From Streptacidiphilus sp. PB12-B1b (GTDB taxonomy: Bacteria; Actinomycetota; Actinomycetes; Streptomycetales; Streptomycetaceae), in the NCBI RefSeq assembly GCF_014084125.1, contig NZ_CP048405.1:5580001-5644000 (forward strand): a stretch of DNA of 64,000 bases, read 5' to 3'. The position numbers were made by a program, and so were the translations under genes. Numbering within the stretch: position 1 is the stretch's first letter; each line of letters opens with the position of its first letter. The notes beneath the pieces are model-generated. The model worked only from the letters and a program-made list of their open reading frames with translations. It did not search any database and had not been told where the DNA came from. Shown here piece by piece: positions 32,219-55,090 of the stretch.

Positions 32219-32402
32219 CCGTGACGGACCGCACCGCGCCCGGGCCGACGACCAGGTGCCATGGCAGCGACCGCCGCCGCGGCGGGTTAGCCTTCAGATG
32301 CCCCGACGACGGGCACCCGCTGGACGCGCGAGCACCGCGTCCCAGCGTCCGGGGAGCGACAGAGGATCGCCTCCGGGAGGCCGGCCGACACAGGGAACAC
32401 GT

Positions 32403-35126
32403 ATGCGGCGCGACACGCCATGCCAGGCTCTGGTCGGGCGACAGCGGGAGACGGAGCTGTTGGAGGCAGCCCTGGAGCGGGCCGCGGGCAGCGAGGGCGG
32501 CGGCTCGGCCGCTCTGCTGCGTGGCGAGGCCGGCATCGGCAAGAGCGCGCTACTGGAGTGGGTCGCTCACCGGGCGCGCGAGCGCGGCTTCTGTGTGCTG
32601 CGGGTGGTCGGCGTCGAGGCGGAGCGGGAGCTGTCCTTCGGCGCCCTGCACCAAGCCGCCTGGCCGTTGCTGCAGCACTCCCGTGCCTTGTCCTCCCATC
32701 ATCGGGATGCGCTGGAGGGCGCGCTCGGCGGCCGGACGGAGACCCCGCCGGGGGGCTTCGCGGTCGGGGCGTCCGCGCTCGCGCTGCTCGCCGAGGCGGC
32801 GCAGCACAGCCCGCTGCTGCTGGTCCTCGACGACCTGCACTGGATCGACTCGTCGAGCGCGACCGTGTTCGCCTTCCTGCGGCGGCGCTGCGCGGAGCTG
32901 CCGCTGGTGATCCTGGGGGCGAGCCGCCCGGACGCCGCTGCAGTCGAGGCGTGGCCCACGGAGCCGCTCGAGATAGGGGCGCTGTCCGGCCCGGACGCGG
33001 CCTCACTGCTGCGGCAGTGCTACCCGGAGCTGGCCGCCGGCACGGCAGGCCGGCTCCTCGAGGAGGCGGCGGGCAACCCGCTGGCGCTGGTGGAGCTGCC
33101 GCGGCAGCTGCGGGTCGCGCAGCAGCGGGGTGTCGCTCCGCTGCCCGACCGCCTGCCGCTGGGGAGGCGCTTGGAGCGCATGTTCGCCGAGCGTCTGGGG
33201 GCGTTGTCCCCTGCGGCCGACCGCGTTCTCCTGCTGGCGGCGCTTGCCACGGGCACGGAGTGCGGAAGCGGAGCGCTGGTGTGCGCGATGGCGGGGAAAG
33301 ACGGGGGAGAAGCACTGGAGCGGATCGAAGCCGGCGGACTCGCCCGGCTCGATCCGGTCGGGCGGCTGGTCTTCCGGCACCCGCTGGTACGTACGGCCGT
33401 GATCTCCAACGCGTCGGAGTCCGCGCAACGCGAGGCCCACCGCATCCTCGCCGCGTTCCTCCCGCCCGACGACCCCCGGCGGCTGGTCCACGAGGCATCG
33501 GCGGCGCTGGTCCCGGACGAAGCTCTGGCGGCCCGCCTGCAGGCGGCGGGCAGCCGGCTCGCCCGGCGCGGCGGCGACGCGGAAGGGGCGCTGCTGCTCA
33601 ACCGGGCGGCCGCACTCAGCGCCGACCCCGCCGAGCGGGCCCGCAGGCTCACCTGGGCCGCAGTGATGGCGGCCCGTGGCGGGCAGCTGCGCCACACCGC
33701 CGCCCTGGTGCAGGAGTTGAAGCGCGGCTCGGTGCCGTCGGACATTGCCCCGCTGTTCGCCTACGCGGTGGTGTACGTCGACCAGAGCCACCTGATCGAC
33801 TTCGAGTCCTCCTCCGCCCTGCTGCCCGCCGCCCTGGACGCCCTCACCGCCCCGGGCGCCGAGTCCTTCGGCGGGCTGGCCGAGCAGGTCTACTTCAAAC
33901 TGTTGCTCGCCGCGACCTGCACGGACGACCCCAGAGCGTGGGAGGCCCTGGAAAGGCACCGGGGAAGCGTTTCCGAGGCGGGCCGACTCTGCCTCCGGGC
34001 CTGGACCGATCCGGCGCGGGGCGTGGCCGAGGAACTGCGGGAGGTGGTCGACGCAATGAACGCGGAGCAGGAGGCGGGGGCGGCCTGGCTCCTGTTGTGG
34101 ACCGCTTCGGCGGTCGACAGTGCCGACGGTGACCTGTGGCGGCGCTTCACCGGGCTGCACGTCTATGCGACGCAGGGCTCCGTGGCGAAGGCCAAGTGCT
34201 ACCAGGACTATCTGCGGGGCCGCTGGGACCTGGCCCCCGTCTGCCTGCGCGAGGCCGAGGCGGCGGAGGAGCTCGGCTACCACTGCAACGCGTTGATCTT
34301 CCGGCACTACTACGCCCACTTCCTGGCCGGCCGCGGCGACGAGGCAGGGCTTCGGGAGATCGAACGGCTCATCAGACCGACGGCTGCTCGCGCCCGGATG
34401 GGTTTCGTGCTGGACCGGTTGACCCATCTGCAGGGCCTGGTGGCGCTGGCCTACGGTCGCTACGAGCAGGCATACGCACATTTCGCCGGGATAGCCCCGC
34501 CCGGACGGCTGCCCAAGAGCCTGCCCTGGCTGCCCACCCTTGCCTTCGACCTCGTGGACGCCGCCGTGCACACCGGCCGACGCGACGAGGCACTGGCGCA
34601 CATCTCGGCCGGGCATGCGGAGCGGGCCGCGGAGATATCCGGACGCCAGGCCTTCCTGCTGGCCGCGGCAGCCGCCCTGGCCGCGGACGACGACGAGGCC
34701 GACGCGGCCTACCGCACGGCGTACGCCGTGCCGGGATGCGAGCGATGGGTCTTCGAACTCGCCCGCCTGCAACTGGCACACGGCTCGTGGCTGCGCCGCC
34801 GCCACCGCGCCGAGGCCCGGGAACTCCTGCGCGTGGCACAGCACGCCTTCCGCAGGCTCCAGGCCGATCCCTGGGTGAAGCGCACCGAGGAGGAGCTCCG
34901 GGCCGCAGGCGACACGCCGGCAGCGGTGCGGAGCATCTCGGTCGCAGAGCTGACCGGCCAGGAACTGCGCATCGCCCGGCTCGCGGCGACGGGTCTGAGC
35001 AACAGGGAGATCGGGGAGGTGCTCAGTCTGTCGCCGCGCACGGTCGGGTCGCACCTCTACAAGATCTTTCCCAAGCTCGGCATCACCTCCCGGGCAGCGC
35101 TCGCCCATGCCCTCGCCACCCGCTGA
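32403..35126 (+). CDS. LAL-type LuxR-family ATPase regulator, first of a tandem pair
   Basis: This is a large regulator of about 907 residues. The N-terminal AAA/NACHT-like ATPase has Walker A GEAGIGKS (residues 41-48) and Walker B LLLVLDDLHWIDSS (D143/D144). A helical repeat-rich middle region follows, then a C-terminal LuxR helix-turn-helix (about 842-905, LTGQELRIARLAATGLSNRE and LSPRTVGSHLYKIFPKLG). LAL proteins are pathway-specific activators of secondary metabolism or carbon use. ATG 32403 is preferred; the in-frame extension to 32256 is low-complexity. No biosynthetic genes adjoin it. Confidence 0.9.
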   Translation: MRRDTPCQALVGRQRETELLEAALERAAGSEGGGSAALLRGEAGIGKSALLEWVAHRARERGFCVLRVVGVEAERELSFGALHQAAWPLLQHSRALSSHHRDALEGALGGRTETPPGGFAVGASALALLAEAAQHSPLLLVLDDLHWIDSSSATVFAFLRRRCAELPLVILGASRPDAAAVEAWPTEPLEIGALSGPDAASLLRQCYPELAAGTAGRLLEEAAGNPLALVELPRQLRVAQQRGVAPLPDRLPLGRRLERMFAERLGALSPAADRVLLLAALATGTECGSGALVCAMAGKDGGEALERIEAGGLARLDPVGRLVFRHPLVRTAVISNASESAQREAHRILAAFLPPDDPRRLVHEASAALVPDEALAARLQAAGSRLARRGGDAEGALLLNRAAALSADPAERARRLTWAAVMAARGGQLRHTAALVQELKRGSVPSDIAPLFAYAVVYVDQSHLIDFESSSALLPAALDALTAPGAESFGGLAEQVYFKLLLAATCTDDPRAWEALERHRGSVSEAGRLCLRAWTDPARGVAEELREVVDAMNAEQEAGAAWLLLWTASAVDSADGDLWRRFTGLHVYATQGSVAKAKCYQDYLRGRWDLAPVCLREAEAAEELGYHCNALIFRHYYAHFLAGRGDEAGLREIERLIRPTAARARMGFVLDRLTHLQGLVALAYGRYEQAYAHFAGIAPPGRLPKSLPWLPTLAFDLVDAAVHTGRRDEALAHISAGHAERAAEISGRQAFLLAAAAALAADDDEADAAYRTAYAVPGCERWVFELARLQLAHGSWLRRRHRAEARELLRVAQHAFRRLQADPWVKRTEEELRAAGDTPAAVRSISVAELTGQELRIARLAATGLSNREIGEVLSLSPRTVGSHLYKIFPKLGITSRAALAHALATR

Positions 35127-35430
35127 GACCCGACTCGGAGACCGCCGTCGTCGCCTGCGCCGACCGGGCACAGCCGGTCCGACACGAGGCTGCCCTCCAA
35201 CTGCCCTCCGTCCAGCGGTTCGTCACCGCCTTCCGGGGCCGACGGTGCGCACCAGGAGCACCGTCGGCGTTCCGAACGCTGGAATGTCAAAAGAAGCGCA
35301 GGTGAGAGCCCTGTGCATCGAGCGCGGGCTCGTCCTGGACAGCCGGTAGGCTACCGATACGTGGTGGGCATGGAGCAGGCCGGACGCCATGGTGAAGCAG
35401 GCCTATCGGCCGCGACAGGTTGGGAGTCCG

Positions 35431-38325
35431 ATGATGCAGGGAGCCGCTGTCGCCGCGCCTGCTGCGGGCCCCGGCGGGTCTGCCCGAGCCGGCTCCGGGC
35501 CGGGTGGCGCGCCGCTGATCGGTCGGGAGGCGGAGGTCGGACGCATTCTGGAGTGCGTCGAGGCCGGTCGCGACCGGCCCCGGTTCCTCCTTGTGCTGGG
35601 CGAGGCCGGTAGCGGCAGGACCGAGCTGCTGAACATCGCGACGGAGCGGGCGAGCCGATCCGGTACGCGCGTCTTGGCTGCCCAGGGTTGTGAGACGGAG
35701 ATGCGGCAGTCGTTCGCGGCGCTGCATCAGCTGCTGCTTCCACTGCTGGGCGATCTCGCGGGGCTGCCGGAGCATCAGCGTGATGCACTCCGCAAAGCCT
35801 TCGGGGTCGTACCGGCCACGGGGCCGGCTGAGCCCATGGTGTTCCGTGTCGCCGTCCTGACGCTGCTCGGGCTGGCCGCGCAGGCAGGCCCGGTCCTGCT
35901 GGCCGTCGACGACATCCAGAGCTGCGATCGGGACTCCCTGGATGTCCTCTTCTTCGTGACCCGGCGCCTCACCAGCGAGTCCGTGACGGTGCTGCTCGCG
36001 GGGCGCGGTGAAGTCCCGCCGCCGGGCGTCTCCGCCGAGCTCGAGGTGCTGCTGCTCGGTCCGCTGGCACCCAGGGCAGCGGCCCAGCTGCTGGACGCGC
36101 AGCCGGGTGCGCCCACCGGAGGCGCCCGGCTGGAGCTGCTCCAGCAGGCGGAGGGCAATCCGCTGGCGATCATCGAACTGTGCCGGGCTCTGCGCAGTGG
36201 TGGCGCGCACGCGCTGAGGAACGACGGCACGCCGCAGACCTCGCGCATTCAGCAGATGTTCGCCGCCCAGCTGGGCGCACTGCCTGCGGCGACGCGGCGC
36301 GCACTGCTCTATTCGGCCGCCGCGTCGACGCACGAGGAACTCACGACACTCATGGCCGCTCTGGGGGCCGGGAGCGAACTGTCCGTGTGGGCACCGGCGG
36401 AGGCGGCGGGCCTGATCACCGTCGCCGACGGACGCGTGGTCTTCCGGCATCCGCTGATCCGCACCGCTGCCTTCCATCGCGAACCCGTGCAAGCCAGACA
36501 GCAGGCACACCAGGACCTGGCAGCTGTGCTCGGAGACCAACCCTCTCGTCAGGCCTGGCACCTGGCCGGTGCGGCGATCGGCCCGGACGAGTCGGTTGCC
36601 GCGGCCCTGGAGGCCACCGCCCTCCTGGCCCAGCGCCGAGGAGGGCTCTACGCCACTGCCAAGGCCTTGGAGCAGGCCGCGCGCTTCAGCCCCCTGGACC
36701 GTGACCGGGCGCGCCGCCTCGCGAAGGCCCTGACCGCCGCGAACGACTTCGGCGACCCGGCCTGGGTCCGTGAGCTGTACGCCGGCTTCGCCGCCGTGAA
36801 CCGCGACCCGGAACTGCTGGCCGTCGCCCTCTGTGCCACCAGTTGGGCGCTGTCGTTGTTCTCGTTCCAGCGTGAGGCATTCTCCCTGCTGTTCGACGCG
36901 TGGGAGCGCAACCCCCCGCTCGACAGGACCACCGCCACCGCCATGGTCACGATCGCCGGCGGCATCGCCCACCAGTCCGGGCTCGAGCAGCACCTGCGCG
37001 TCCTGCCGGGGATGCTCGACCGGGTCACCCGGACCAACCGGGCCGGGGAGCTCGGCCCCGGGACCACGGAACCGCACTACCCCCACCTCACCCGCGACGA
37101 CATCGCCACCGCCGTCCTGGGCGTCGTACGGGCCACCAGCGACCCGGCGGCCCACGCCACCCGCTTGTCGGAGACCCTGGCCTCGCTGCCGCGACCATCC
37201 GATCCGCACGATTCGGCAACCGTGCACCGGATGGTCGCGGTCGGCACGATCGCCTACTACGCGGACGAGTCCGATGTGTGCGTGGACCTGTTTCGGCAGG
37301 TGTTCGTGCCGCTGCGGGCGGCGGGGGCGATGGGCCCGGTCGCGCATCTGCTCGCCGTGCAGGTGGACGTGCTGCTGGCCACCGGACGATGGACGGAGGC
37401 TCAGGAACTGATCGAGGAGGCGCAGGCCCTCGCGGCGGTCCACAGGCTGACGTATGCCGAGCTGGATCTCGACGCCCTCCGCGTGACCCTGCACGCGCTG
37501 CGCGGGGACGGCGAGCCGGGGGCCGGCCTCATCGGACCGGGTCGGCACTTCGTCAGCCTCGACGAGAACCGCGCCACGCTCGCCCGGATGCTACGGGCCC
37601 GGGGGCTCGCAGCCCTGGCCCTGGGGGACCACGAGAGCGGCTTCCGCCACCTGAGATCCCTGTTCGCGGACGACGGCACCCCGGTGCACAACTTCCTGTC
37701 CAGCCGTTCCATCGCCGTCCTTGCCGCCGCCGCCCAGAGGCTCGGTCGGCAGAGCGAGGCAGCACAGGTCCTGGCGGCGGTACGACAGGCCGAGGGCCGC
37801 AGGCCGACCACCCGGATGACGCTGTTGATGCACCACGCGGCGGCCCTGGTCGACCAGGATGCCGACACGGAACAGCATTTCCGCCTCGCTGTAGTCGATC
37901 CGGGAGCGGAGCAGTGGCCGATGGAACGCGCACTGGCCCGGATGAGCTATGCGGTCTGGCTGCGCAGGAAGCGGCGACCTCTCGAAGCGCGCGAGCAACT
38001 GGCGACTGTCATCGAGGCCGCGACCCGGCTCGGCGCGACCCGACTCGCCGCCGAGGCCGGCGCTGAACTGCGCGCGAGCGGCGCGGCCACCGTTGTCGAG
38101 GTCACCGCCCCGCTCGCGCAGCTGACCGCTCAGCAGCAGCAGATCGTCGAGCTGGCCGCGAGCGGTCTCTCGAATCGCGAGATCGGAGAACTGCTGTTCC
38201 TGTCCCCCCGTACCATTGGCACGCACCTGTACAACGTCTATCCCAAGCTCGGGATCAGCAGTCGCCGTCAGTTGCGGGACGTGATCGAGAGGCGCCCGCG
38301 ATGGGAAGGGACAAGCGAGGAATGA
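35431..38325 (+). CDS. LAL-type LuxR-family regulator with a non-canonical P-loop, second of the pair
   Basis: This protein of about 964 residues has the same layout as its neighbour. The Walker A is GEAGSGRT (57-64): the invariant lysine is arginine (R63). Walker B is VLLAVDDIQSCDRDS. The LuxR helix-turn-helix is at the C-terminus (LTAQQQQIVELAASGLSNRE and LSPRTIGTHLYNVYPKLG). The start is ATG 35431 with GGGAG before it; ATG 35389 is the alternative. Loss of the P-loop lysine suggests weak or absent ATP hydrolysis. The 304-bp gap before it holds no gene. Confidence 0.88.
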   Translation: MMQGAAVAAPAAGPGGSARAGSGPGGAPLIGREAEVGRILECVEAGRDRPRFLLVLGEAGSGRTELLNIATERASRSGTRVLAAQGCETEMRQSFAALHQLLLPLLGDLAGLPEHQRDALRKAFGVVPATGPAEPMVFRVAVLTLLGLAAQAGPVLLAVDDIQSCDRDSLDVLFFVTRRLTSESVTVLLAGRGEVPPPGVSAELEVLLLGPLAPRAAAQLLDAQPGAPTGGARLELLQQAEGNPLAIIELCRALRSGGAHALRNDGTPQTSRIQQMFAAQLGALPAATRRALLYSAAASTHEELTTLMAALGAGSELSVWAPAEAAGLITVADGRVVFRHPLIRTAAFHREPVQARQQAHQDLAAVLGDQPSRQAWHLAGAAIGPDESVAAALEATALLAQRRGGLYATAKALEQAARFSPLDRDRARRLAKALTAANDFGDPAWVRELYAGFAAVNRDPELLAVALCATSWALSLFSFQREAFSLLFDAWERNPPLDRTTATAMVTIAGGIAHQSGLEQHLRVLPGMLDRVTRTNRAGELGPGTTEPHYPHLTRDDIATAVLGVVRATSDPAAHATRLSETLASLPRPSDPHDSATVHRMVAVGTIAYYADESDVCVDLFRQVFVPLRAAGAMGPVAHLLAVQVDVLLATGRWTEAQELIEEAQALAAVHRLTYAELDLDALRVTLHALRGDGEPGAGLIGPGRHFVSLDENRATLARMLRARGLAALALGDHESGFRHLRSLFADDGTPVHNFLSSRSIAVLAAAAQRLGRQSEAAQVLAAVRQAEGRRPTTRMTLLMHHAAALVDQDADTEQHFRLAVVDPGAEQWPMERALARMSYAVWLRRKRRPLEAREQLATVIEAATRLGATRLAAEAGAELRASGAATVVEVTAPLAQLTAQQQQIVELAASGLSNREIGELLFLSPRTIGTHLYNVYPKLGISSRRQLRDVIERRPRWEGTSEE

Positions 38326-38515: not shown

Positions 38516-38549
38516 CAGTCGACTGACGTATGCAGATCAGTCGACTGAC
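38516..38549. promoter_or_regulatory. two palindromic operator sites upstream of the AraC gene
   Basis: CAGTCGACTG occurs at 38516-38525 and again at 38538-38547; each is a perfect 10-bp palindrome (the second extends to TCAGTCGACTGA). Their spacing of 22 bp is about two helical turns, placing both on the same DNA face. They end 68 bp before the GTG start of the AraC-type regulator and are candidates for its own or a LAL protein's binding sites. Confidence 0.6.
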
Positions 38550-38616
38550 TCACGCGTCAGCCACGGGCTTACGGCAGGCTGGATTGCAGGCAGATCCAAC
38601 GTCCAGGGAGGCGCCT

Positions 38617-39564
38617 GTGCCCACTGTCCTCTCCACAGCGCCGCTGTCCGCCACCGACCGGGCGGAGATCTGGCACGAAGCGGTTTCCGGCACCTTTGTG
38701 CCCATGGAGGTGAACCTGCTCGAGAGGGAGCCCTCGCCCGGAACGATCGTCAGCAGTCGACTCGGCTCCCTGCAGATCTCCCGCGTCCAGGCCGGACCAC
38801 AAGTGGTGACGCGCAACAAGCACCATATCTCCCGGGCAGACAGCGAGTCCCTTATCGTCAGCCTTCAGCAGCGGGGCACCGCAATAAAGGAGCAGGACGG
38901 GCGGGAAACCCTGATCAAGCCGGGTGAATTCTCCATCAGTGATTCGTCCCGGCTGTTCCGGAAGAAACTCGAAGGAGAGTTCACTTTCACCTCCTTTCAT
39001 TTCCCTCGTGAAGACCTCCACGTTCGGGACGAGGACCTGCAGGCGCTGACCGCCACCACCTTCACCAGCGAGCAGGGCAGCGCCGCGCTGGTGGCCACCT
39101 ACCTTGCGCGCATGGCGCGCGAAGTCGAGTGCTTCGACGACGCCGTCGGCCGTCGACTCGCCGCTACCGCGCTGGATCTGATGGTGCTCCTCATCGACGA
39201 GCGGCGCGGCCGCTTCGCTTCCGAGGGCCCACAGGTTGCCGCAGCCACACTCGAGCGCGTGAAGGATTACATCATGCGCAACCTCGACGACCCCGACCTG
39301 TCACCATCCAGGATCGCCGAGGCGCACTTCATGTCTGTGCGCTACTTGCACAAGCTGTTCCAGTGCGATGACACGACGGTGAGCGCGTGGATTCGGATGC
39401 AGCGACTGGAGCGGTGCCGCCGGGAACTGCTGCGTCCCATGGGCAGGGAGCGGGGGGTGGCGGCCATCGCCCACCGCTGGGGTTTCGCAAGCCACAGCCA
39501 TTTCAGCCGGGCCTTTCGCGCGGCCTACGGCACCACGCCCAGTGAATGGCGGGTCCAAGGATAG
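38617..39564 (+). CDS. AraC-family regulator with AraC-binding-like sensor domain
   Basis: This is a 315-residue regulator. The N-terminal sensor (residues about 1-190, with LSATDRAEIWHEAVSGTFVP and LIKPGEFSISDSSR) matches the AraC-binding-like domain found in ToxR/FeaR-type activators. The C-terminal double helix-turn-helix (about 215-315) has LSPSRIAEAHFMSVRYLHKL and IAHRWGFASHSHFSRAFRAA. The start at GTG 38617 is chosen for GGGAGG just upstream. It precedes and probably controls the hydrolase genes downstream, two of which share a leader sequence. Confidence 0.9.
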   Translation: MPTVLSTAPLSATDRAEIWHEAVSGTFVPMEVNLLEREPSPGTIVSSRLGSLQISRVQAGPQVVTRNKHHISRADSESLIVSLQQRGTAIKEQDGRETLIKPGEFSISDSSRLFRKKLEGEFTFTSFHFPREDLHVRDEDLQALTATTFTSEQGSAALVATYLARMAREVECFDDAVGRRLAATALDLMVLLIDERRGRFASEGPQVAAATLERVKDYIMRNLDDPDLSPSRIAEAHFMSVRYLHKLFQCDDTTVSAWIRMQRLERCRRELLRPMGRERGVAAIAHRWGFASHSHFSRAFRAAYGTTPSEWRVQG

Positions 39565-39631
39565 GGCGGAGCGCAGTTCGGGAACACCCGCGGTGCACCC
39601 GGGGACAAGTAACCGGTGGCTTCCGCCCATA

Positions 39632-39682
39632 GCGTGGTGGTGAGGAGAATTCCCACGACGCAAGGAATCGCAGATGTCCGAC
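39632..39682 (+). promoter_or_regulatory. promoter/leader copy 1, duplicated at 41501-41550
   Basis: From CATAGCGTGGTGG through AGGAG, CAAGGA and CAGATGTCCGAC this leader is very similar to the one before the hydrolase at 41542. TAGCGT resembles a -10 element. Its ATG (39674) opens an 18-codon frame whose TGA (39728-39730) overlaps the TTG start (39727) of the hydrolase, so the peptide may be a leader or a frame-shifted former N-terminus. Confidence 0.55.
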
Positions 39683-39726
39683 CCGACAACTCACGTCCCG
39701 CCCTTTCCCGGGGGCGGGGAACGGCC

Positions 39727-40449
39727 TTGAACGGCAGCTCCTGCCCCACTGTCGTCCTGGTGCACGGCGGCTTCACCGATGCCGGCAGCTGGGCCCGTGT
39801 CATCACCGAACTCCGGAAGCACGACATTCCGGTGTACGCGCCACCCAATCCGTTGCGAGGACTCGCGGCGGATTCGGCGTACATCGCGTCGGTCGCGGAA
39901 CGGATCCGGGGTCCGGTGATCCTGGTCGGGCACGCGTACGGCGGCGCGGTCATCAGCGTTGCCGGCATGGCGGACAACGTGGTCGCCCTGGTCTATGTCG
40001 CCGCCTTCATCCCCGATGAAGGGGAAAGCGTCGCCGAACTGCAGGGGCGCTTCCGGGACTCGCTGCTGGCCGCGCACCTGTCTGCCGCGCCCCGTCCGAT
40101 TGACGGCTCCGAACCGGGCACCGACTTCTCCATACGTCCGGACGCCTTCCGGGCGGTGTTCGCTGCCGACCTGCCCCAGCAGGTCACCGCAGTCCTCGCC
40201 GTTGCCCAGCGCCCTGTGGCCGAAGCGGCCCTGGCGGAGAAAGCCACCGCACCCGCATGGCGGTGCAAGCCGTCCTGGGCCCTGATCGCGGGCGCCGACC
40301 AGGTCATCAATCCTGAAGTCGAGCGATTCGGGGCCGACCGTGCGGCCTCCGCCACGGTCGAGGCCGACGGCGCCTCCCACGCGGTCGCGCTGTCCCGGCC
40401 GGCAGTGGTCGCCGCCCTCATCCGCGACGCAGTGGACGAAATCAGCTGA
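39727..40449 (+). CDS. alpha/beta hydrolase paralogue 1, catalytic serine replaced by alanine
   Basis: The protein has about 240 residues if it starts at TTG 39727, the length of paralogue 3; GTG 39616 is another in-frame start. The fold is clear: PTVVLVHGGFTDAGSWARVI, LVGHAYGGAVIS, ALIAGADQVINPEVERFG. The nucleophile elbow is GHAYGG, with A70 (GCG) where the paralogues have serine, while D191 and H218 remain. It is therefore probably not a classical hydrolase; a binding or regulatory role, or a recently inactivated gene, are possible. It is 50 bp upstream of paralogue 2 on the same strand. Confidence 0.8.
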   Translation: MNGSSCPTVVLVHGGFTDAGSWARVITELRKHDIPVYAPPNPLRGLAADSAYIASVAERIRGPVILVGHAYGGAVISVAGMADNVVALVYVAAFIPDEGESVAELQGRFRDSLLAAHLSAAPRPIDGSEPGTDFSIRPDAFRAVFAADLPQQVTAVLAVAQRPVAEAALAEKATAPAWRCKPSWALIAGADQVINPEVERFGADRAASATVEADGASHAVALSRPAVVAALIRDAVDEIS

Positions 40450-40499
40450 CAGACCACATCCACGTCCAACACCGTTCAACCGAAGGAGAACGCACCATC

Positions 40500-41342
40500 A
40501 TGAGTTCCGACATCTCCCGCCGCACCGTCACCACGACGCTCCTGGCCGGAGCGGCCACGCTGGGGACCAGCCGACTGGCTGTCGCCGCCCCGCAGCCGAG
40601 CGGAGCCGCCGCTGCTCCGCATCGGCCGCGGCCCGAACCCACCGTGGTGCTCATCCACGGCGCCTTCGCCGACGCATCGAGCTGGAAGGGCGTCGTTGAA
40701 CGCCTGCAGACCCGGGGCCACCGGGTCCTGGCAGCCGCGCTCCCGCTGCGCGGCCTGGCGAGCGACGCAACGTACATCCGCAGCCTGCTGCAGAGCATTG
40801 CCGGACCCGTCGTTCTGGTCGGCCACTCCTACGGCGGTTCTGTCATCACCCAGGCCGCAGCAGGGCTGCCGCAGGTCAAGGCACTCGTCTACATCGCTGC
40901 CTTCGTTCCCGACATCGGGGAGAGCGCACTGGAACTGACCGGGAAGTTCCCCGGCTCGACCCTGGCCCAGGCCACCTCGACCCTGACCTACCCCCTGCCC
41001 GGCGGAGGAACGGGCGAGGAGCTGCTCATCAGGCAGGACCTGTTCCACCAGCAGTTCGCGGCCGGCGTCCCCACCGAGACCGCGCGGGTCATGGCCATCG
41101 GGCAGCGGCCGATCACTCTGAGCGCTCTACAGGAACCCACCAGGGCCGCCGCGTGGAAGACCATTCCCAGCTGGTACCTGGTGGCCACCGAGGACCGCAA
41201 CATCCCCCCGGCGGCCGAGCGGTGGATGGCCCAGCGAGCACGCGCCCGCACTGTCGGCGTCCGAGCACCGCAAGCCGCCTCGGTGACCGACCCGGGCGCC
41301 GTGACCAACCTCATCCTGGGCGCAGCCCGCTCCGTCCACTGA
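40500..41342 (+). CDS. Tat-exported alpha/beta hydrolase paralogue 2, catalytic histidine replaced
   Basis: This is a 280-residue protein. The N-terminal Tat signal is SRRTVTTTLLAGAATLGTSR, then a Pro/Ala linker, then the same fold as paralogues 1 and 3: VVLIHGAFADASSWKGVVE, nucleophile S110 in GHSYGG, and D232 in ATEDRNIPP. Where the catalytic histidine is expected (RAPHAAS in typical relatives, SHAVAL or SHLVML in its neighbours) it has Q258 (RAPQAAS). Loss of the general base should cripple esterase activity. ATG 40500 follows CGAAGGAG. It is probably co-transcribed with paralogue 1. Confidence 0.85.
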   Translation: MSSDISRRTVTTTLLAGAATLGTSRLAVAAPQPSGAAAAPHRPRPEPTVVLIHGAFADASSWKGVVERLQTRGHRVLAAALPLRGLASDATYIRSLLQSIAGPVVLVGHSYGGSVITQAAAGLPQVKALVYIAAFVPDIGESALELTGKFPGSTLAQATSTLTYPLPGGGTGEELLIRQDLFHQQFAAGVPTETARVMAIGQRPITLSALQEPTRAAAWKTIPSWYLVATEDRNIPPAAERWMAQRARARTVGVRAPQAASVTDPGAVTNLILGAARSVH

Positions 41343-41500
41343 GCAGCACGCCCGCCCCTTCCTCGCCGCCGGAACGGGCGGGCGCTCACGCCAGGATGCG
41401 CCGGACCAGCCGGTTCCGTGGTCCAGGCCGACGACAGGGCGCGCATGGAGAGACCAGCTGCGGTGCACGGGATGACAAAGCAGAGGTGGCGGCGGCTCAT

Positions 41501-41551
41501 AGCGTGGTGGCCAGGAGTTCCCCCTACACAAGGAGTCACAGATGTCCGACG
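41501..41551 (+). promoter_or_regulatory. promoter/leader copy 2
   Basis: CATAGCGTGGTGGCCAGGAG through AAGGAGTCACAGATGTCCGAC mirrors 39632-39682. Here the AAGGAG and ATG (41542) open the hydrolase directly. The shared bases span a -10-like TAGCGT, the leader and the first codons, so the two operons were probably duplicated with their control region. Confidence 0.6.
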
Positions 41552-42513
41552 CCACCGTTCCGGTTCAGCCCGTTCTGGAGCCCGAGGCCCTCGCTTTCGC
41601 CGAGGCGACCGCCAACCCCCCGTACCTGTTCGATCTGGCCCCGGCCGACGGGCGCAAGGCCGTGGACGAGGTCCAGTCGGGCGAGGTCCGACTGCCCGCG
41701 ATCGACGAGGAGTGGACCACGGTCGCCGGCGGGCCCACCGGCAGCGTGCGGGTCCGCATCGTTCGCCCGGCAGGGGCCGCCGGGGTGCTCCCGGTGATCC
41801 TGTACATCCACGGCGCCGGCTGGGTGTTCGGCAACGCCCACACCCACGACCGGCTGGTGCGGGAACTGGCCGTGGGATCCGGGGCCGCAGTGGTGTTCCC
41901 CGAGTACGACCTGTCGCCCGAGGCCCGCTACCCGGTGGCCATCGAGCAGAACTACGCCGTCGCCCGGTGGATCGTGGCCGAAGGCGCGTCCAAGGCCCTG
42001 GACGGCACCCGCCTGGCCGTGGTCGGGGACTCGGTCGGCGGCAACATGAGCGCCGCCCTGACCCTGATGGCCAAGGAGCGCGGCGACGTCTCCCTGGTCC
42101 AGCAGGTCCTGTTCTACCCGGTCACCGACGCCGGCTTCGACACCGGCTCCTACCACCAGTTCGCCGAGGGCTACTTCCTGCGCCGCGACGGCATGCAGTG
42201 GTTCTGGGACCAGTACACCACCAGCGAGAGCGACCGCGCCCAGATCACCGCCTCCCCGCTGCGCGCCACCACGGAGCAACTGACCGGCCTGCCCCCGGCC
42301 CTGGTCATCACCGGCGAGGCCGACGTGCTCCGCGACGAGGGCGAGGCCTACGCCGCCAAGCTCCGCGCCGCGGGCGTGGCCGTGACCGCCGTCCGCATTC
42401 AGGGCGTCATCCACGACTTCGTCATGCTCAACGCCCTGCGCCCCACCCACGGCGCCCAGGTGGCCATCACCCTGGCCACCGACGCCCTTCACAGCGCCCT
42501 GCACCAGGCCTGA
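41542..42513 (+). CDS. HSL-family alpha/beta hydrolase (esterase/lipase)
   Basis: This is a 323-residue hydrolase of the hormone-sensitive-lipase family. The oxyanion motif is HGAGWVFGNAHTHDRL (usually HGGG, here HGAG). The triad is S164 in VVGDSVGGNMS, D261 in ITGEADVLRDEGEAY and H291 in GVIHDFVM. All catalytic residues are present. It probably hydrolyses short acyl esters in the cytoplasm. It shares its leader with paralogue 1's transcription unit, suggesting common control by the AraC regulator. Confidence 0.9.
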   Translation: MSDATVPVQPVLEPEALAFAEATANPPYLFDLAPADGRKAVDEVQSGEVRLPAIDEEWTTVAGGPTGSVRVRIVRPAGAAGVLPVILYIHGAGWVFGNAHTHDRLVRELAVGSGAAVVFPEYDLSPEARYPVAIEQNYAVARWIVAEGASKALDGTRLAVVGDSVGGNMSAALTLMAKERGDVSLVQQVLFYPVTDAGFDTGSYHQFAEGYFLRRDGMQWFWDQYTTSESDRAQITASPLRATTEQLTGLPPALVITGEADVLRDEGEAYAAKLRAAGVAVTAVRIQGVIHDFVMLNALRPTHGAQVAITLATDALHSALHQA

Positions 42514-42564
42514 CCGGCCCGGCAGACCCACAGCAACCCCGTCCTCATGCGAAGGAGGGTCTCC

Positions 42565-43290
42565 GTGACCCAGCCGACCTCTCCGACCGTCGTCCTCGTG
42601 CACGGGGCATTCGCTGACGCCTCGAGCTACGCCCGGGTCATCCCCGAGTTGCTCGCCGACGGCTTCGACGTCGTGGCCCCGGCCGTGCCCAACCGCAGTC
42701 TGATCGGCGATGCGGCCTACATCGCCTCGTTCGTCCGGCAGATCCCCGGCCCCGTGGTGCTGGTCGGCCACTCGTACGGCGGCGCGGTGATCACCGTCGC
42801 CGGCGTCGAGGACAATGTCAAAGCCTTGGTCTACCTGGCCGGCTATGCCCTCGAGCAGGGCGAGAGCCTGGGCGAACTGCAAGGCCGCTTCGCCGACTCG
42901 GACCTGGCCCAGGCCCTGGTCTACACCCCGTTTCCGATCGAGGGCTCCACCGGGTCCGGCACCGACGTGTCCGTGGACGCCGCCAGGTTCCCCGCAGTAT
43001 TCGCCGCCGACGTCGAGCCCGAACTCGCCGCTGTCCTGGCCGTTTCCCAGCGCCCGCTGGCTGCCCAGGCGTTCGCCGACGCGGCTCCCGCCGCGGCCTG
43101 GAAGACCAAGCCCTCCTGGGGTCTGGTCTCCACCGCGGACCGCGCCATCAACCCCGAGGTCGAGCGCTTCGGGTACCAGCGCGCCGGAATGACCACCATC
43201 GAGGTCCACTCCTCGCACCTGGTCATGCTCGCCCACCCCAAGAAGGTCGCCGAGCTGATCCGCGAGGCCGTCCACGCCACGGTCCACTGA
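42565..43290 (+). CDS. alpha/beta hydrolase paralogue 3, intact triad
   Basis: This is a 241-residue protein close to paralogues 1 and 2: PTVVLVHGAFADASSYARVI, S70 in GHSYGG, D192 in TADRAINPE and H218 in VHSSHLVML, so the triad is complete. GTG 42565 follows CGAAGGAGGGTC; the ATG 18 bp upstream overlaps that site. It lies 51 bp after the HSL-type hydrolase and is probably in the same operon. It looks like the functional member from which the others diverged. Confidence 0.9.
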   Translation: MTQPTSPTVVLVHGAFADASSYARVIPELLADGFDVVAPAVPNRSLIGDAAYIASFVRQIPGPVVLVGHSYGGAVITVAGVEDNVKALVYLAGYALEQGESLGELQGRFADSDLAQALVYTPFPIEGSTGSGTDVSVDAARFPAVFAADVEPELAAVLAVSQRPLAAQAFADAAPAAAWKTKPSWGLVSTADRAINPEVERFGYQRAGMTTIEVHSSHLVMLAHPKKVAELIREAVHATVH

Positions 43291-43378: not shown

Positions 43379-43933
43379 ATGAGCGATCAGCCGCTGCTGC
43401 ACCAAAAAGCACACCAGGTACGGGGGTTCGGAACTCTCCACCAGTTCCCGCTCGGCCTGGGCCACGACGCCCGGATGTACTCCTGCCAGCGCCTGAACCA
43501 GGCCCTGGCGGACACCCAGTTCCTCTACGCGCTCTACAAGAAGCACCACTGGCTGATGCGCGGCGCCACCTTCTACCAGCTCCACCTGCTCCTGGACAGC
43601 CACGCGGAGCAGCAACTCGCCCTGGTCGACACCCTGGCCGAGCGGGTCCAGAGCCTGGGCGGCGTCGCCGTGGGCGATCCCCGCCACGCCGCCGAGATCA
43701 CCGCCATACCGCGTCCGCCGGACGGAGTCGAGGACGTCCCCGCCATGCTGTCACGGCTGTTGGAGGCACACGAGACGATCCTCGTCGACGCACACGACGC
43801 GGCCGCCCGTGTCGCCGCGCTCGGTGACGACGGCACCAACGACCTGCTCGTCTCCCAGGTCATCCGCACTGGAGAGGCCCAGGCCTGGTTCCTGGCCGAG
43901 CACCTCGTGGACACCCCGCTCGTCCGCAGCTGA
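43379..43933 (+). CDS. dps: Dps-family DNA-binding ferritin
   Basis: This 184-residue protein forms dodecamers that oxidise and store iron and shield DNA. The ferroxidase-site pattern is visible: LYALYKKHHWLMRGATFYQL (histidine), then LLLDSHAEQQLALVDTLAER (aspartate and glutamate), with the C-terminal QVIRTGEAQAWFLAEHL helix. The short N-terminal tail has a lysine and histidines (HQKAHQVRG) that may bind DNA. It lies 88 bp after the hydrolase and shares its direction, so it may be stress-induced with the cluster. Confidence 0.9.
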   Translation: MSDQPLLHQKAHQVRGFGTLHQFPLGLGHDARMYSCQRLNQALADTQFLYALYKKHHWLMRGATFYQLHLLLDSHAEQQLALVDTLAERVQSLGGVAVGDPRHAAEITAIPRPPDGVEDVPAMLSRLLEAHETILVDAHDAAARVAALGDDGTNDLLVSQVIRTGEAQAWFLAEHLVDTPLVRS

Positions 43934-46498: not shown

Positions 46499-48367
46499 TC
46501 AGCGGGGTGCGTCGAGCACGTTGAGGATGCGGGTGGCGACGTGCAGGTTGAGGCGGTCCTCGACGTCACCGAGGTCGTGCCCGGTGATCTCGCGGATGCG
46601 CCGGAGGCGGTAGCGGACGGTGCTGCGGTGGATGAGCAGCGTCTCCGAGGTCGTGTCGTAGCTGCCGCCGCTCTCCAGATAGCGCGAGAGAGTCATCACC
46701 AGCTCGGTGTGGTGGCGGGCGTCGTAGTCCAGTAGCCGGCCCAGCCACTGGCGGACGAAGCGGTCGGCTTCCCGTTCGCCGTCGCCGGTGCCCATCATGC
46801 GGCACAGGCCCAGCTCCTCGAAGGCCGTGCTGCCGTACGGGTCCTGGGACCGGCGGCGGACGGTGAGGGAGCGGACCGCCTCGTTGTAGGAGTGCGGCAG
46901 GTCGGTGAAGACGTCGCAGTGGCCGCCGACCCCGATCGCACCGGCCCCGGTGCCGAGTTCCTCCGAGACGGCCCGGTACAGCTCGTCTCCCGGGTCGCGC
47001 CGGTCCTCACCGGCCACCAGGACGACCGTGGTCGCGCCACGAGAGCCGACCAGTACGTCCCGGTGCAGCCGTTCGGCCGCCCGCACCACCGCGTCCCCGA
47101 GCGCGGCCCTCTCGGCCGTCCCGGGCCATTCCAGTACGGCGACCTTGTGCGGCCGGTGCAGGTCGTGGCCCAGGGCTGCCGCCTGGGTGAAGACGTCGTC
47201 GGTCGCCTCGCCTGAGATCAGCCGGTTGACCAGGTCGCGTCTCAGTTGGGGCTCCAGCTCGGCCAGCCTGCGCTCGTACGCGAGCTGGGGAGCCAGCACC
47301 AGCGCGGCCTGTTCGAGCGCCGAGGTGTCCGTTTCCGCCGCCCGCCGGTCCGGGTCCACCAGCGCGACGATGCCGAGCAGATCACCGGCCATCTCGATGG
47401 GGACGATCAGCCGTTCCCGGTCCCGGACGGTGCCGGGCCGGCGTTGCGCGCCTTGTATCAGGACGTCCCGGCGCCGGTTGTCCGCGCCCGGGGGCGGCCC
47501 ACTGCTGGGTCCCCTCCGGGGGTCGTCCTGGCCGGGACCGGCCCAGGCCCGCGTGTTGCCGAAGCGGTCCTCGGTGAGGGCCGCGAATCCCGTGTGGTCG
47601 TACAGTGCCTGCAGGACTCCCTGCTCGCCCGTGCCGGAGACGGCGGCGCGGGAGAGCGCCTCGCGGATGGCGAGCCGAGAGGTGAGGGCCGAAACGGTCG
47701 CGCCGAGTCCTGCGGTGGGTGAGCCGCCCTCGGTCCCCAGCAGGCTGCCCGTCTCTGGCAGGTCCCCTGTCCCCGGCATGCTCCCGGACCCGACGCGGGC
47801 CGACGCTCCCGGGTGCCCGGCGAGGTGCGCGAGGACGATCCCGGTCTGCTGTGCGAGCAGATCGGTAAGGGCGGTCTCCTCGGCCGAGGGCGTGGTCAGG
47901 GACCGGACGACGAGATAACCGAGGCAGTGGTTCCGGTACCGCAGCGCGATGGCCCGGACCCACAACCCACCCGGCTCGTGCAGGCGACGGCTGCGGCCGT
48001 CCAGGGCGTCGATCCGCCGGTCGAGCCGTTCGGCGGCCGCCACGCCGGCGGCGGCTGCTTCAGCCGGGGCTCGGCCGGTGCAGTCCGCCGCCGGTTCCCG
48101 CGCCGCCGCACTTCCCGGTCGGGCGGCGGCGGAGGCGCCCACCCGGCGCGGTGGGCAGCGCCGCACCAGACCGTCGTGCACGGCATAGGCCGCTTCGGCG
48201 GTGAAAGGGCCGGTGGCGGCGATCGCCGCCAGGGCCCCCCACAGCACCTCGCGCTCGTCCTTGCCGTCGAGCATGACCGTCACCAGCCGTAGCACTGCGT
48301 GTTGCGCGGCCTCCGCCTGCGGGATGGGGTGGAGGGGGCCGGCGGCCGGAAAGGGAACAGCGTGCAT
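46499..48367 (-). CDS. PucR/CdaR-family transcriptional regulator
   Basis: This is a 622-residue regulator. A GAF-like N-terminal region covers about residues 20-190, and a central GGDEF-related CdaR domain about 260-500. The C-terminal PucR helix-turn-helix (about 560-615) has LVMTLSRYLESGGSYDTTSE and LLIHRSTVRYRLRRIREITG. It is divergent from dnaK, with 245 bp between the start codons, and may control the chaperone operon. Arg- and Ala-rich linkers (about 90-130) are probably disordered. Confidence 0.88.
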   Translation of the reverse strand: MHAVPFPAAGPLHPIPQAEAAQHAVLRLVTVMLDGKDEREVLWGALAAIAATGPFTAEAAYAVHDGLVRRCPPRRVGASAAARPGSAAAREPAADCTGRAPAEAAAAGVAAAERLDRRIDALDGRSRRLHEPGGLWVRAIALRYRNHCLGYLVVRSLTTPSAEETALTDLLAQQTGIVLAHLAGHPGASARVGSGSMPGTGDLPETGSLLGTEGGSPTAGLGATVSALTSRLAIREALSRAAVSGTGEQGVLQALYDHTGFAALTEDRFGNTRAWAGPGQDDPRRGPSSGPPPGADNRRRDVLIQGAQRRPGTVRDRERLIVPIEMAGDLLGIVALVDPDRRAAETDTSALEQAALVLAPQLAYERRLAELEPQLRRDLVNRLISGEATDDVFTQAAALGHDLHRPHKVAVLEWPGTAERAALGDAVVRAAERLHRDVLVGSRGATTVVLVAGEDRRDPGDELYRAVSEELGTGAGAIGVGGHCDVFTDLPHSYNEAVRSLTVRRRSQDPYGSTAFEELGLCRMMGTGDGEREADRFVRQWLGRLLDYDARHHTELVMTLSRYLESGGSYDTTSETLLIHRSTVRYRLRRIREITGHDLGDVEDRLNLHVATRILNVLDAPR

Positions 48368-48612: not shown

Positions 48613-50523
48613 ATGGCGAAGGCAGTAGGCATCGATCTCGGCACCACCAACTCGGTCATCGCGGTCTGGGAGGGCGGTGAGCCCGCTGTCGTCCCGAATG
48701 CGGAGGGGGCCAGGACGACCCCGTCGGTGGTCGCCTTCTCCGATGACGGCCAGCGGCTGGTCGGACAGCTCGCGCGCCGGCAGTCGATCCTCAACCCCAA
48801 AGGCACCATCACCTCCGCGAAGCGGTTCATCGGCCGTCGCTACGACGAGATCTCCGACGAGGCCAAGGCGGTCTCCTTCGACGTGGTCGAGGGGCCCGGC
48901 GGGGTGGCCCGCTTCGAAGTGAGAGGAAAGCAGTACGCGCCGGAGGAGATCAGCGCGCAGGTCCTGCGCAAGCTCGCCGACGACGCCGGGAAGTCGCTCG
49001 GCGAGAAGGTGACCGAGGCGGTCATCACCATACCGGCGTACTTCAACGACGCGCAGCGTCAGGCCACCAAGGACGCCGGGAGGATCGCCGGCCTTGAAGT
49101 CCTGCGGATCATCAACGAACCGACGGCCGCGGCGCTGGCCTACGGGTTGGACAAGAAGGGCCATGAGACGGTCATGGTCTTCGACCTCGGCGGCGGCACG
49201 TTCGACGTCAGCCTGCTGGACGTCGGCGACGGCGTCGTGGAGGTCCGCGCCACGGCAGGCGACTCCCACCTGGGCGGCGACGACTTCGACCGCCGGCTGG
49301 TGGACCACTTGGCGGACGGCTTCCAGAAGGCCGAGGGCATCGACCTGCGCAAGGACCCGCAGGCTCTGCAGCGCCTGTTCGAGGCGGCCGAGAAGGCGAA
49401 GACCGAGCTGAGTTCGGTCAGCCAGACCCAGGTGAGCCTGCCGTTCATCACGGCGGACGCCTCCGGGCCGAAGCACCTCACCGAGACGGTCCGCCGCTCC
49501 ACCTTCGAGCAGATCACCTCGGACCTGGTGGAGCGCTGCCTCGAACCGGTCAGGACGGCGATGAGCGACGCCAAGGTCACTGACAACGACATCGACGAGG
49601 TCATCCTCGTGGGCGGCTCGACCCGTATCCCGGCTGTGCAGAACCTGGTCCGCCGGATGACCGGCGGCAAGGACCCGAACATGAGCGTCAACCCCGACGA
49701 GGTCGTGGCGCTGGGCGCCGCCATCCAGGCCGGGGTGCTCAAGGGCGAGGTCAAGGACGTCCTGCTGCTGGATGTCACTCCGCTGTCGCTGGGTGTCGAG
49801 ACGGCCGGCGGCGTGATGACCAAGATCATCGACCGGAACACCACCATCCCCGCCCGCCGGTCCGAGACCTTCTCCACGGCTGAGGACAACCAGCCGGCTG
49901 TGGACATCGTGGTGCTCCAGGGCGAACGCGAACTGGCCGCCGACAACAGGGTGCTGGGCCGCTTCCGGCTGGAGAACCTGCGGCCGGCCCGGCGCGGGGA
50001 GACCCAGATCGAGGTCACCTTCGACATCGACGCCAACGGCATCCTCAAGGTCAGCGCCAAGGACCGGGACACCGGTGCCGAGCAGTCGATCACCATCAGT
50101 GAGGGCTCCAACCTCGACCCGTCCGAGGTCGAGCGGATGATCAACGAGGCCGAGAGCAACCGCACCAGCGACCTGGCCCTGCGCGAGGCCATCGACGCCC
50201 GCAACGAGCTCGACGCCGCCGCGTACCAGGTGGAGCGCCGACTGGACGACCTCGGCGGCGCCGCACCGGAGCACGAGCGCGCCCGCGCCCACCTGCTCAT
50301 CGACGAGGCGCGTACCGCCGTCAAGGAGGAGGCGTCCGCGGAACGGTCCCGGAGCCTGACCTCCGAGCTCCAACAGGTCCACGCGGCGCTGGCCGCCCAC
50401 GCCGCCGCCCCCGGCGGAGCCGCGGGCGGAGCCCGGCCCGGCCCGGCGCCCGGCCAGGGTTCCGAGGGCGGCTCCCCGAGCGGCGACGACGACGTCATCG
50501 ACGCCGATTTCGACAAGAGCTGA
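48613..50523 (+). CDS. dnaK: Hsp70 chaperone DnaK
   Basis: This is a 636-residue chaperone. The nucleotide-binding domain (1-385) has GIDLGTTNS at residues 6-14, [14 protein letters not shown] and [19 protein letters not shown]. The linker [18 protein letters not shown] leads to the substrate-binding domain, and a helical lid ends in a Gly/Ala/Pro-rich tail closing with [11 protein letters not shown]. It folds and disaggregates proteins with GrpE, DnaJ and ClpB, all encoded downstream. ATG 48613 follows GGAGGAG. The lack of a HAIR site suggests a second, specially regulated dnaK copy. Confidence 0.97.
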
Positions 50524-50532
50524 GGCGGCGAC

Positions 50533-51105
50533 ATGTCGGATCAGGAACAGACGCGTGCTGCCGAGGACCGCTCCCCGCCCCCGCCCCCGCAGACGCCGCT
50601 CGAGCACACGCCCGCACCGCAGACGACCCCGCGGCCCCCCGAAGCCGGGGAGCAGGAGCAGGCGGCCTGCAGCCCCGAGGTGGAGGAGTTGGAGGACCGG
50701 TGGCGGCGAGCCCTCGCTGACCTCGACAATCTCCGCAAGCGCTACGGCCGTGAGCTCCCCCGGGAAAGGGAGGCCGAGCGGGCCAAGGTGGCCGCGGCGT
50801 TCCTCCCGGTCGTCGACAACCTCGAACTGGCCCTCGCCCACGCGGGCGCCGACGACCCCGGCGCGATCGTCAGCGGAGTCCGGGCGGTACGCGACCAGGC
50901 CGTCGAGGTGCTGCGAAGCCTCGGCTACCCCCGCTACGAGGAGACCGGCGTCCCCTTCGACCCCGAGCAGCACGAGGTGGTGTCCGTGGTGGATGAAGCG
51001 GACACCACTGCGGGCACCGTCGTCCAGGTGCTGCGGCCCGGCTACGGCGAACCCGGCCACCAGCTGCGCCCGGCCGCGGTAGCGGTCAGCCGCAAGCCGG
51101 AGTGA
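50533..51105 (+). CDS. grpE: nucleotide exchange factor GrpE
   Basis: This 190-residue protein releases ADP from DnaK. A proline-rich disordered N-terminus (1-50) leads into a long coiled coil ([20 protein letters not shown]) and the beta domain with [20 protein letters not shown] and VVQVLRPGY. It starts 9 bp after dnaK. Confidence 0.96.
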
Positions 51106-51112
51106 GGCCGCC

Positions 51113-52090
51113 ATGGCAGACGACTTCTACGAGGTGCTGGGCGTCCCCCGCACCGCCGACGCCGCCGAGATCCAGCAGGCGTTCCGTACGCTGGCCCGTC
51201 GCTACCACCCGGACGTCAACCGCGACCCGGCCGCAGAGGAGCGCTTCAAGCAGATCAATGAGGCGTACAGCGTGCTGTCGGATCCCGGCACCCGGGCCCG
51301 CTACGACCGCTTCGGCCCCGACTTCCGGCAGGTTCCGGAGGACTACGACGAGCGTGTCGCGGCCGGCCGGGGTTTCGGCGGCGGAGCCGGCGCGTACCGC
51401 GGCAGTCCCTTCGGAGGCGCCCGTGGCGACGACCGGGCAGGTACCCGGAGCTGGACGCAGACCGGCTTCGACGGCTCTGGCGTCGACTTCGAGGACCTCT
51501 TCGGGGGCATGTTCGGCGGCCGGGCGGGCGGCGCAGGGCGGGGCAGCCCGATCCCCGGCGCGGACCAGGAAGCCGAACTCACGCTCAGTGTGGAGGAGGC
51601 GTACCGGGGCGGCCGGCGGAAGATCACCCTCGGCGGACCCGGCGGGGAGCGCAGCTACGACGTCACCGTCCCGGCCGGCGTCGTCGACGGGCAGCGCATT
51701 CGGCTCGCAGGGGAGGGCGGCCGGGGCCGCGGCCCGGGCGCCGCCGGGGACCTCTATCTGGTGGTCCGCATCGCCCCCCATCCCCGCTATCGGCTCGTCG
51801 GGCGCGACATCCACGTCGATCTGCCGGTCACCGCCTGGGAGGCCGCACTGGGGGCGACGGTGCCGGTCTCCGGTCCGGGCGGAACGGTCAAGGTGCATGT
51901 GCCGCCCGGTACCTCCACCGGCCGCCGACTGCGGTTGCGCGGCGAAGGGATGCCCCACCCCACAGGTTCCCCCGGTCACCTCTACGCCGAGATCCAGGTG
52001 ATGGTGCCGCCCTCGCCCAGCCCGCGCGAGCGCGAGTTGTTCGAGGAGCTGGCCGCCGTCTCCTCCTTCGACCCGAGGAGACAGACATGA
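51113..52090 (+). CDS. dnaJ: class B J-protein (DnaJ/CbpA type)
   Basis: This 325-residue co-chaperone stimulates DnaK ATPase. The J domain (4-68) has HPD at 32-34 (YHPDVNRDP). A Gly/Phe-rich linker ([22 protein letters not shown]) and two C-terminal beta domains follow. It has no cysteine zinc finger, so it is CbpA-like, which fits the CbpM-like gene next door. The stop overlaps that gene by four bases (ATGA). Confidence 0.95.
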
Positions 52091-52466
52091 GAGCCGAACA
52101 CCGTTCTCCCGCCGAAGGCGCCGGACAGCCCCGCACCAGGGCTGTCTACCCCCTGGTGCGGGTCTACCGGACCAGCCCCAGCCCCTACCAGCTCCCCCTC
52201 GCCGGAGCGGCCAGCAGGAGTGGGCTGCCGCCCGAACTCGTCAGCCGCTTCGTCGCCCTCGGGCTGGTGGACGCCGAGCGTGACGCCCGGGGTCGACTGT
52301 GGTTCCGGCCGAGCGCGCCGTCGGCCATCGCCCGGGTGCAGCGGCTGCGGGCCGGACTGGGCCTCAACTACGCGGCCATCGGCGTCGTCCTGGACCTGCT
52401 CGGCCGCGTCGAACGCCTGGAAAACGCACTGCGGCGCAGCGAACGAGCCGCCAAGGAGCCCACACC

Positions 52467-52476
<10 letters not shown>
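52087..52476 (+). CDS. CbpM/MerR-like chaperone modulator
   Basis: This is a 129-residue protein. A winged-helix MerR_2/CbpM-like domain covers residues about 20-110: [40 protein letters not shown] and [20 protein letters not shown]. CbpM-type proteins bind the J domain of CbpA and restrain it; the MerR relative HspR represses chaperone operons. Either role is possible: modulator of the overlapping dnaJ product or repressor of the operon. It overlaps dnaJ by 4 bp and clpB by 10 bp. Confidence 0.82.

Positions 52477-55090
<2,614 letters not shown>

Follow-up and report, generated by a model that had tools for sequence, protein, structure and literature searches.

What does it mean when neighbouring hydrolase paralogues lose different residues of the catalytic triad? 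The question is raised by a locus of Streptacidiphilus sp. PB12-B1b, found in a window of 64,000 nucleotides (contig NZ_CP048405.1, positions 5,580,001 to 5,644,000; coordinates below are those of the window), where three Abhydrolase_6 genes, here termed P1 (39727..40449), P2 (40500..41342) and P3 (42547..43290), are read in the same direction on the forward strand. All three match PF12697 above the curated cut-off of 26.3 bits (83.1, 88.9 and 91.0 bits, respectively). The elbow of P1 reads GHAYGG, with Ala70 (codon GCG at 39934-39936) in place of the nucleophilic serine, and Asp191 and His218 are kept. P2 has the elbow GHSYGG, Ser110 and Asp232, and carries Gln258 (codon CAA at 41271-41273) where the catalytic histidine is expected; P3, with the same elbow as P2, has the complete triad Ser76-Asp198-His224. 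In an alignment of the family these residues fall in the Ser, Asp and His columns, and the residue states agree with those given in the initial annotation, which was made from the sequence alone. That annotation also took the two losses as complementary changes of one system. Instead, they are separate events: the alanine of P1 is recurrent in its subfamily, and the glutamine of P2 is private. P1 may be a selected variant that works without a nucleophile.

To place these residues among relatives, P1 and P2 each served as the query against 14 genomes from the genus (the own genome included) and 394 from the family. P1 had matches at 1e-60 in 117 of the 394 genomes, and all 120 places listed were read, from fetched stretches or, for three of them, from other loci. 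A further 80 loci, the best 80 of 110 relatives, were taken from named genomes; the search patterns here included HAYGGAVI and favoured alanine. The family members with a matched stretch of more than 170 residues gave an alignment of 302 distinct rows: 265 are Ser-Asp-His, 31 Ala-Asp-His, two Gly-Asp-His, one Asp-Asp-His and one, P2, Ser-Asp-Gln, and two have a gap. In the His column, P2 is thus the sole row to show a different residue; the gaps in that column belong to L165, at the cut-off end of a locus, and to L015, a degenerate paralogue of the own genome. For frequencies that do not depend on the motif, 210 of the 302 rows were retained. The 92 dropped rows are 87 that were known only via the alanine-favouring pattern search or a motif scan (22 of them with Ala), P1-P3 themselves, and two known only from loci of the own genome.

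The alanine at position 70 is not private to P1, and the change from Ser to Ala arose several times in the P1 subfamily. Among the motif-independent rows, Ala is found in eight of the 60 subfamily members and Ser is kept in the other 52. The initial annotation proposed to check whether orthologues share A70 and took a normal Ser in most relatives as a sign of strain-specific decay or sequencing error; taken literally, that check gives a mixed outcome for P1. Outside the subfamily, three of 150 such rows lack Ser (Gly, Gly and Asp), and these form one single lineage. A Fisher test, in which relatedness is not corrected for, gives a p of 0.002. Parsimony on the motif-independent rows places five of six changes within the P1 subfamily, although its share of the tree length is 21%, and the binomial p is 0.002. 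On a FastTree phylogeny built with the three catalytic columns removed, 15 changes are needed at the nucleophile place. An IQ-TREE phylogeny of the P1 subfamily (72 rows, 13 of them with Ala, seven P3-type rows as the outgroup, catalytic columns included) needs seven changes for the 13 Ala rows, five of which are forced by starred branches, and the number ranges from 5 to 8 across bootstrap trees. An exact motif scan for GHAYGG followed by Ala/Ser-Val-Ile/Met found it in six of the 394 genomes, including the own one, a count that leaves rows of the GHAYGGAL type outside. GHAYGG as a string of letters was not found in the literature searched; in the available text of PMC3292560, EstC of S. coelicolor has the motif GHSLGGQ and is placed with family V lipases. 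The separate lineage without Ser (L029, L261 and L314) is long-branched and has Gly, Asp and Gly at the nucleophile place, respectively, with Asp and His kept.

The rest of the catalytic machinery persists after the serine is gone. Both Asp and His are kept in all 210 motif-independent rows. The lineages that lack Ser, 34 rows in total, add up to a tree length of about 9.7 substitutions per site (a figure that takes in stem branches and pattern-found rows) with zero losses of Asp or His. Since two unconstrained sites are not expected to survive this amount of change, the Asp-His pair is under selection after the loss of the nucleophile. The ratio of nonsynonymous to synonymous substitution rates (dN/dS) was compared in a group of ten orthologues, four with Ala and six with Ser, in which Ala-Ser pairs are up to 92% identical (L208 with Ser and L212 with Ala) and the nucleophile codons are GCG or GCA for Ala and TCG or TCC for Ser. 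The ranges overlap: 0.25-0.38 for Ala-Ala (6 pairs), 0.18-0.46 for Ser-Ser (15 pairs) and 0.22-0.48 for Ala-Ser (24 pairs). For P1 itself, dN/dS against L056 is about 0.29, with dS near saturation.

We also counted broken positions among 39 columns conserved at a level of at least 95%; the Ser column, conserved in less than 95% of rows, is not one of them. P1 breaks none of the 39, P2 breaks one, and L015 breaks 15. The 34 non-Ser rows break 1.4 columns on average versus 0.7 for the 265 intact rows, which is slightly more and is not a picture of decay. With an open frame and these counts, neither P1 nor P2 qualifies as a pseudogene. The base composition of P1 is of the coding type, with a guanine plus cytosine (GC) content of 0.83 at third positions. 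In contrast, L015 (G000:C1:1134215-1134715), which is without the first strand and the catalytic His, is likely a pseudogene. Gene neighbourhoods were compared at seven loci of the L212 group and its neighbours, three with Ala (L212, L237, L215) and four with Ser (L206, L208, L205, L217); by script labels, LuxR-type and PucR-type genes are present at all seven, AraC at five and an alpha/beta-hydrolase gene at four. Loci with Ala and loci with Ser have neighbours in common.

Comparison with known systems was made on a predicted structure of P1 with a predicted local distance difference test score (pLDDT) of 94.3. Among the 50 fold matches listed, those at Z 23.5-28.0 include SABP2, hydroxynitrile lyases, the pyrethroid hydrolase PytH, MES16, polyneuridine aldehyde esterase, methylketone synthase 1 (MKS1), 8hfw, 6tj2 and BioH3, and other hydrolases follow at 20.5-21.3. 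The modelled fold of P1 is therefore nearer to the SABP2/hydroxynitrile lyase/MES/MKS1 group than to the other alpha/beta-hydrolases listed. The top PDB sequence matches, 8hfw and 6tj2 (Paenibacillus, SABP2-like) and PytH (5y57), have Z of 24.7-28 and 22-25% identity to P1, and their elbow Ser is seen in alignments with P3. The plant SABP2/MES methylesterases and hydroxynitrile lyases (1xkl, 1y7h, 9clr, 3dqz, 5hk8; Z about 25-27) resemble P1 in fold, in length and in the order nucleophile-Asp-His along the chain, but they share 16-22% identity with it, and P1 is without their Ser. Hydroxynitrile lyases have a Lys next to the catalytic His, and the title of one such entry among the fold matches names K236L; with Ala70 for Ser and Ala219 after His218, where Lys is required, P1 is ruled out as a hydroxynitrile lyase. 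As for the methylesterases, the MES family is described as restricted to plants in the available text of PMC11644291.

Two kinds of enzyme of this fold offer precedents for a missing nucleophile. Tomato MKS1 (3stt, 3stv, 3stx, 3sty) belongs to the structural group of P1, with Z of 23.5-24.5 and 17-18% identity. In the available text on this enzyme it has Ala-His-Asn instead of Ser-His-Asp and decarboxylates 3-keto acids (PMC11644291), with a natural Ala at the nucleophile place and the His kept (PMC11644291, PMC10548524). Ala and His are common to MKS1 and P1, but P1 is Ala-His-Asp, and Asp191, where Asn is required, rules it out as a methylketone synthase 1. In the cofactor-independent dioxygenases HOD, QDO and AqdC, natural interchange of Ser and Ala is seen, as in the P1 subfamily (PMC10548524, available text); the accessible parts of PMC10548524 and PMC3961685 give the His-Asp pair of HOD as the base, with Ser not essential, and AqdC as naturally Ala. 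The triad acid of HOD follows the elbow by 25 residues (Ser101/Asp126; PMC3961685, available text) versus 121 in P1 (Ala70/Asp191), and this position of the acid, 121 versus about 25 residues past the elbow, rules P1 out as a dioxygenase of this type. Neither HOD nor QDO nor AqdC has an entry among the 22 PDB sequence matches of P1, and HOD entries are not among the 50 fold matches listed, although such a listing excludes nothing. P1 thus resembles HOD/AqdC and MKS1 in that the nucleophile is dispensable and the His stays, and by the features tested it belongs to neither kind.

The glutamine of P2 has another history. All 14 other rows of the P2 clade have His, and P2 reads RAPQA where the clade reads RAPHA (with one DAPHA and two HAPHA). 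Because of these 14 orthologues, Gln258 is to be seen as a private change of this genome: either the His was lost recently in this lineage, or the residue is an error. The initial annotation had asked whether orthologues share Q258 and had taken a normal His in most relatives as a sign of strain-specific decay or sequencing error; that is the situation found for P2. The Tat-like (twin-arginine translocation) N-terminus that it had noted in P2 (SRRT) is present, and among 14 N-termini of the clade, P2 included, twin arginine is found in 12, with Arg-Pro in G078 and an unreadable start in L095. In our reading, P2 is a serine hydrolase of the Tat type from which the His has recently gone in this lineage, and it is probably inactive as an esterase. 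That Gln258 is no settled change, and instead reflects faulty sequencing or a polymorphism of the strain, is rather unlikely: such an origin would fit a change of one residue with no other conserved position broken and with His in every orthologue, and it is opposed by the quality of the assembly, a single contig of 7.67 Mb with a completeness of 100. Against the G078 orthologues, dN/dS is 0.27 for P2 and 0.18 for P3, values averaged over the whole divergence that have little bearing on a recent change. P3 has the appearance of a conventional serine hydrolase.

For P1, the pattern suggests that its branch has a function different from ordinary ester hydrolysis. From the residue states, their distribution, the constraint and the predicted fold we infer the catalytic role of the dyad, the type of chemistry and any substrate. 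We propose that P1 is a folded and selected protein of the alpha/beta-hydrolase fold in whose subfamily the nucleophilic Ser is dispensable, that His218, together with Asp191, would serve as the general base, and that the reaction would proceed without an acyl-enzyme, for example as a cofactor-free oxygenation, a decarboxylation or a lyase step. Ser and Ala could then interchange over evolution because a reaction of the P1 type forms no acyl-enzyme. We favour this selected, nucleophile-free variant using His-Asp tentatively, at somewhat short of an even chance. Several observations weigh against it. The closest relatives of P1 among the matches listed (62-67% identity, L056-L083) all have Ser, and P1 itself stands on a long branch whose placement in the IQ-TREE phylogeny is unsure. 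The mixing of Ser and Ala within the L212 group could partly reflect recombination. P1 depends on a TTG start (or a distant GTG) behind a displaced leader, and the genome G078 keeps a mere remnant of it, so the gene can be lost. We know of no activity or ligand for any row used, and Asp and His might have been retained to bind a ligand.

This last point leads to the main competing explanation, in which P1, possibly along with P2, binds or senses a ligand without catalysis. Its pocket, with Asp and His, would hold for instance a substrate of P3 or of the Abhydrolase_3 enzyme encoded between P2 and P3, or an inducer to which the adjacent AraC or LuxR-type regulator responds. A binding role would accommodate the fold and the 39 conserved positions, all kept without a nucleophile, as well as the regulators that adjoin P1-type genes at loci of both the Ala and the Ser kind. 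However, Asp-His is present in every row that lacks Ser, which is more than a binding pocket by itself would demand, orthologues with Ser and up to 92% identity are under the same constraint, and no partner or ligand is known. We regard a binding role as unlikely, though a serious possibility. As to the plant hormone receptors of similar fold that the initial annotation brought up, the plant fold matches of P1 are SABP2, hydroxynitrile lyase, MES16 and MKS1, and the documented precedent found there for Ala at the elbow, MKS1, is an enzyme. Early decay or redundancy, with Ser lost because the activity is supplied by P3 and further paralogues, agrees with the P1 remnant in G078, the majority of subfamily rows that keep Ser, the long branch of P1 and the presence of other family members and the degenerate L015 in the own genome. 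The conserved-position test, the dN/dS values and the unbroken Asp-His pair lower its weight, as do the recurrence of Ala and the coding-type base composition, and we consider it improbable. The suggestion of the initial annotation that more than decay is involved is supported for P1, where Ala recurs, Asp and His are always kept and the constraint looks unchanged; the glutamine of P2 is a private matter. P1 could also still hydrolyse if His-Asp activates water for a direct attack on a reactive substrate, with no covalent intermediate. Its Asp and His are in place, and it belongs to the same family as intact hydrolases; direct activation of water by His-Asp is, however, weak in principle for ordinary esters, and the literature searched yielded no documented case from this group. 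This explanation appears very improbable.

A second group with Ala at the elbow was found in the wider family. The 13 Ala rows with the motif SHAYGG (L138, L139, L142, L146, L147, L153, L157, L159, L178, L184, L186, L187 and L190) form one clade, are 69-96% identical and have 129 of 244 columns invariant. Their hosts are Sphingomonas, Methylocella, Lichenifustis, Caulobacter, Granulicella, Burkholderiales, an unplaced proteobacterial bin and Methylacidiphilales, and the clade, which extends over several phyla, looks horizontally spread. It was found almost wholly via the pattern that favours Ala; the exception is L331, a further member from a protein search, which has Ala too and is 84% identical to L157. 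SHAYGG proteins are rare, being present in one of 199 and two of 150 genomes of two families (E 1e-80, centre genomes included). The neighbours across the 13 loci include genes of the LysR type (9), a flavin oxidoreductase (Oxidored_FMN, 7), CMD (4), ABM (4), AhpC/TSA (3) and GST (3). Searches of plasmids returned a wide family, with a best identity of 48% to the SHAYGG protein in one search. A small Klebsiella plasmid (L319, 1815-4426) has a MarR gene and two adjacent alpha/beta-hydrolase genes, one of them about 48% like P1, and on pAt of Agrobacterium fabrum (L320) a MarR gene also stands next to two alpha/beta-hydrolase genes.

The layout of the Streptacidiphilus locus bears on its history. 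The initial annotation described a tandem family; the three Abhydrolase_6 genes do have one direction, but P2 and P3 are separated by an Abhydrolase_3 gene (hormone-sensitive-lipase-like, 41542..42513, plus strand). P1-P2 is flanked by two direct-repeat copies, both on the plus strand and 70-74% alike. One (41438..41575) is the upstream region of the Abhydrolase_3 gene with its first codons, and the other (39568..39707) is the same region, displaced and now 5' of P1. The single regulator assumed for the whole family is not shown, as P1-P2 and Abhydrolase_3-P3 each have their own copy of the upstream element. The copy 5' of P1 retains the old ATG, which now opens a plus-strand frame of 18 codons (39674..39730) whose stop codon, TGA, overlaps the TTG with which P1 begins, and coupling may be possible there; an alternative in-frame GTG start of P1 lies at 39616. 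That frame is ruled out as a frameshifted N-terminus of P1, as the comparison with L219 shows it to be a displaced start of the Abhydrolase_3 gene. L219, the locus in G078, has the closest gene order found. There the AraC and Abhydrolase_3 genes are adjacent, P1 and P2 sequences come after Dps, and a P1-like remnant (8949-9046, the last 26 residues and a short piece) lies directly 5' of a His-bearing P2 orthologue. The simplest account, on this gene order, is that P1-P2 arrived at the present place along with a duplication of the Abhydrolase_3 upstream element; the reverse move in G078 is the alternative.

Upstream of P1, on the plus strand, are an AraC-type regulator (38530..39564) and a large AAA_16-LuxR regulator (35389..38325), the latter being part of a tandem pair of such regulators at 32256-38325, 5' of the AraC gene. 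The downstream neighbour of P3 is a Dps-like ferritin-family gene (43379..43933, plus strand). Elsewhere in the window, consecutive Hsp70, GrpE, DnaJ and ClpB-type genes (48613-55091) adjoin the locus, with a PucR-type regulator (46499-48367) by them; a Mutator-family transposase is encoded close to the window end (60975-62285), and the GC content falls to 0.586 at 8001-10000.

Overall, this is an ordinary family that contains an interesting subfamily. A broader claim, that P1 belongs to a bacterial subfamily of alpha/beta-hydrolases that do without a nucleophile and leave the chemistry to His-Asp, with the SHAYGG clade as a second such enzyme, seems to us doubtful, if worth stating. If this broader claim is true, Ser and Ala orthologues of up to 92% identity would be a natural and repeated version of the Ser-to-Ala experiment on HOD, and a cofactor-free reaction as yet unknown would be indicated in Streptomycetaceae. 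Pairs of Ser and Ala orthologues such as L208/L212 are ready-made test pairs. Very many genes of the 'alpha/beta hydrolase' type are annotated as esterases on their fold alone. Repeated loss of the nucleophile without loss of His or Asp, as in the rows seen here, may be a cheap route to non-hydrolysing enzymes of this fold.

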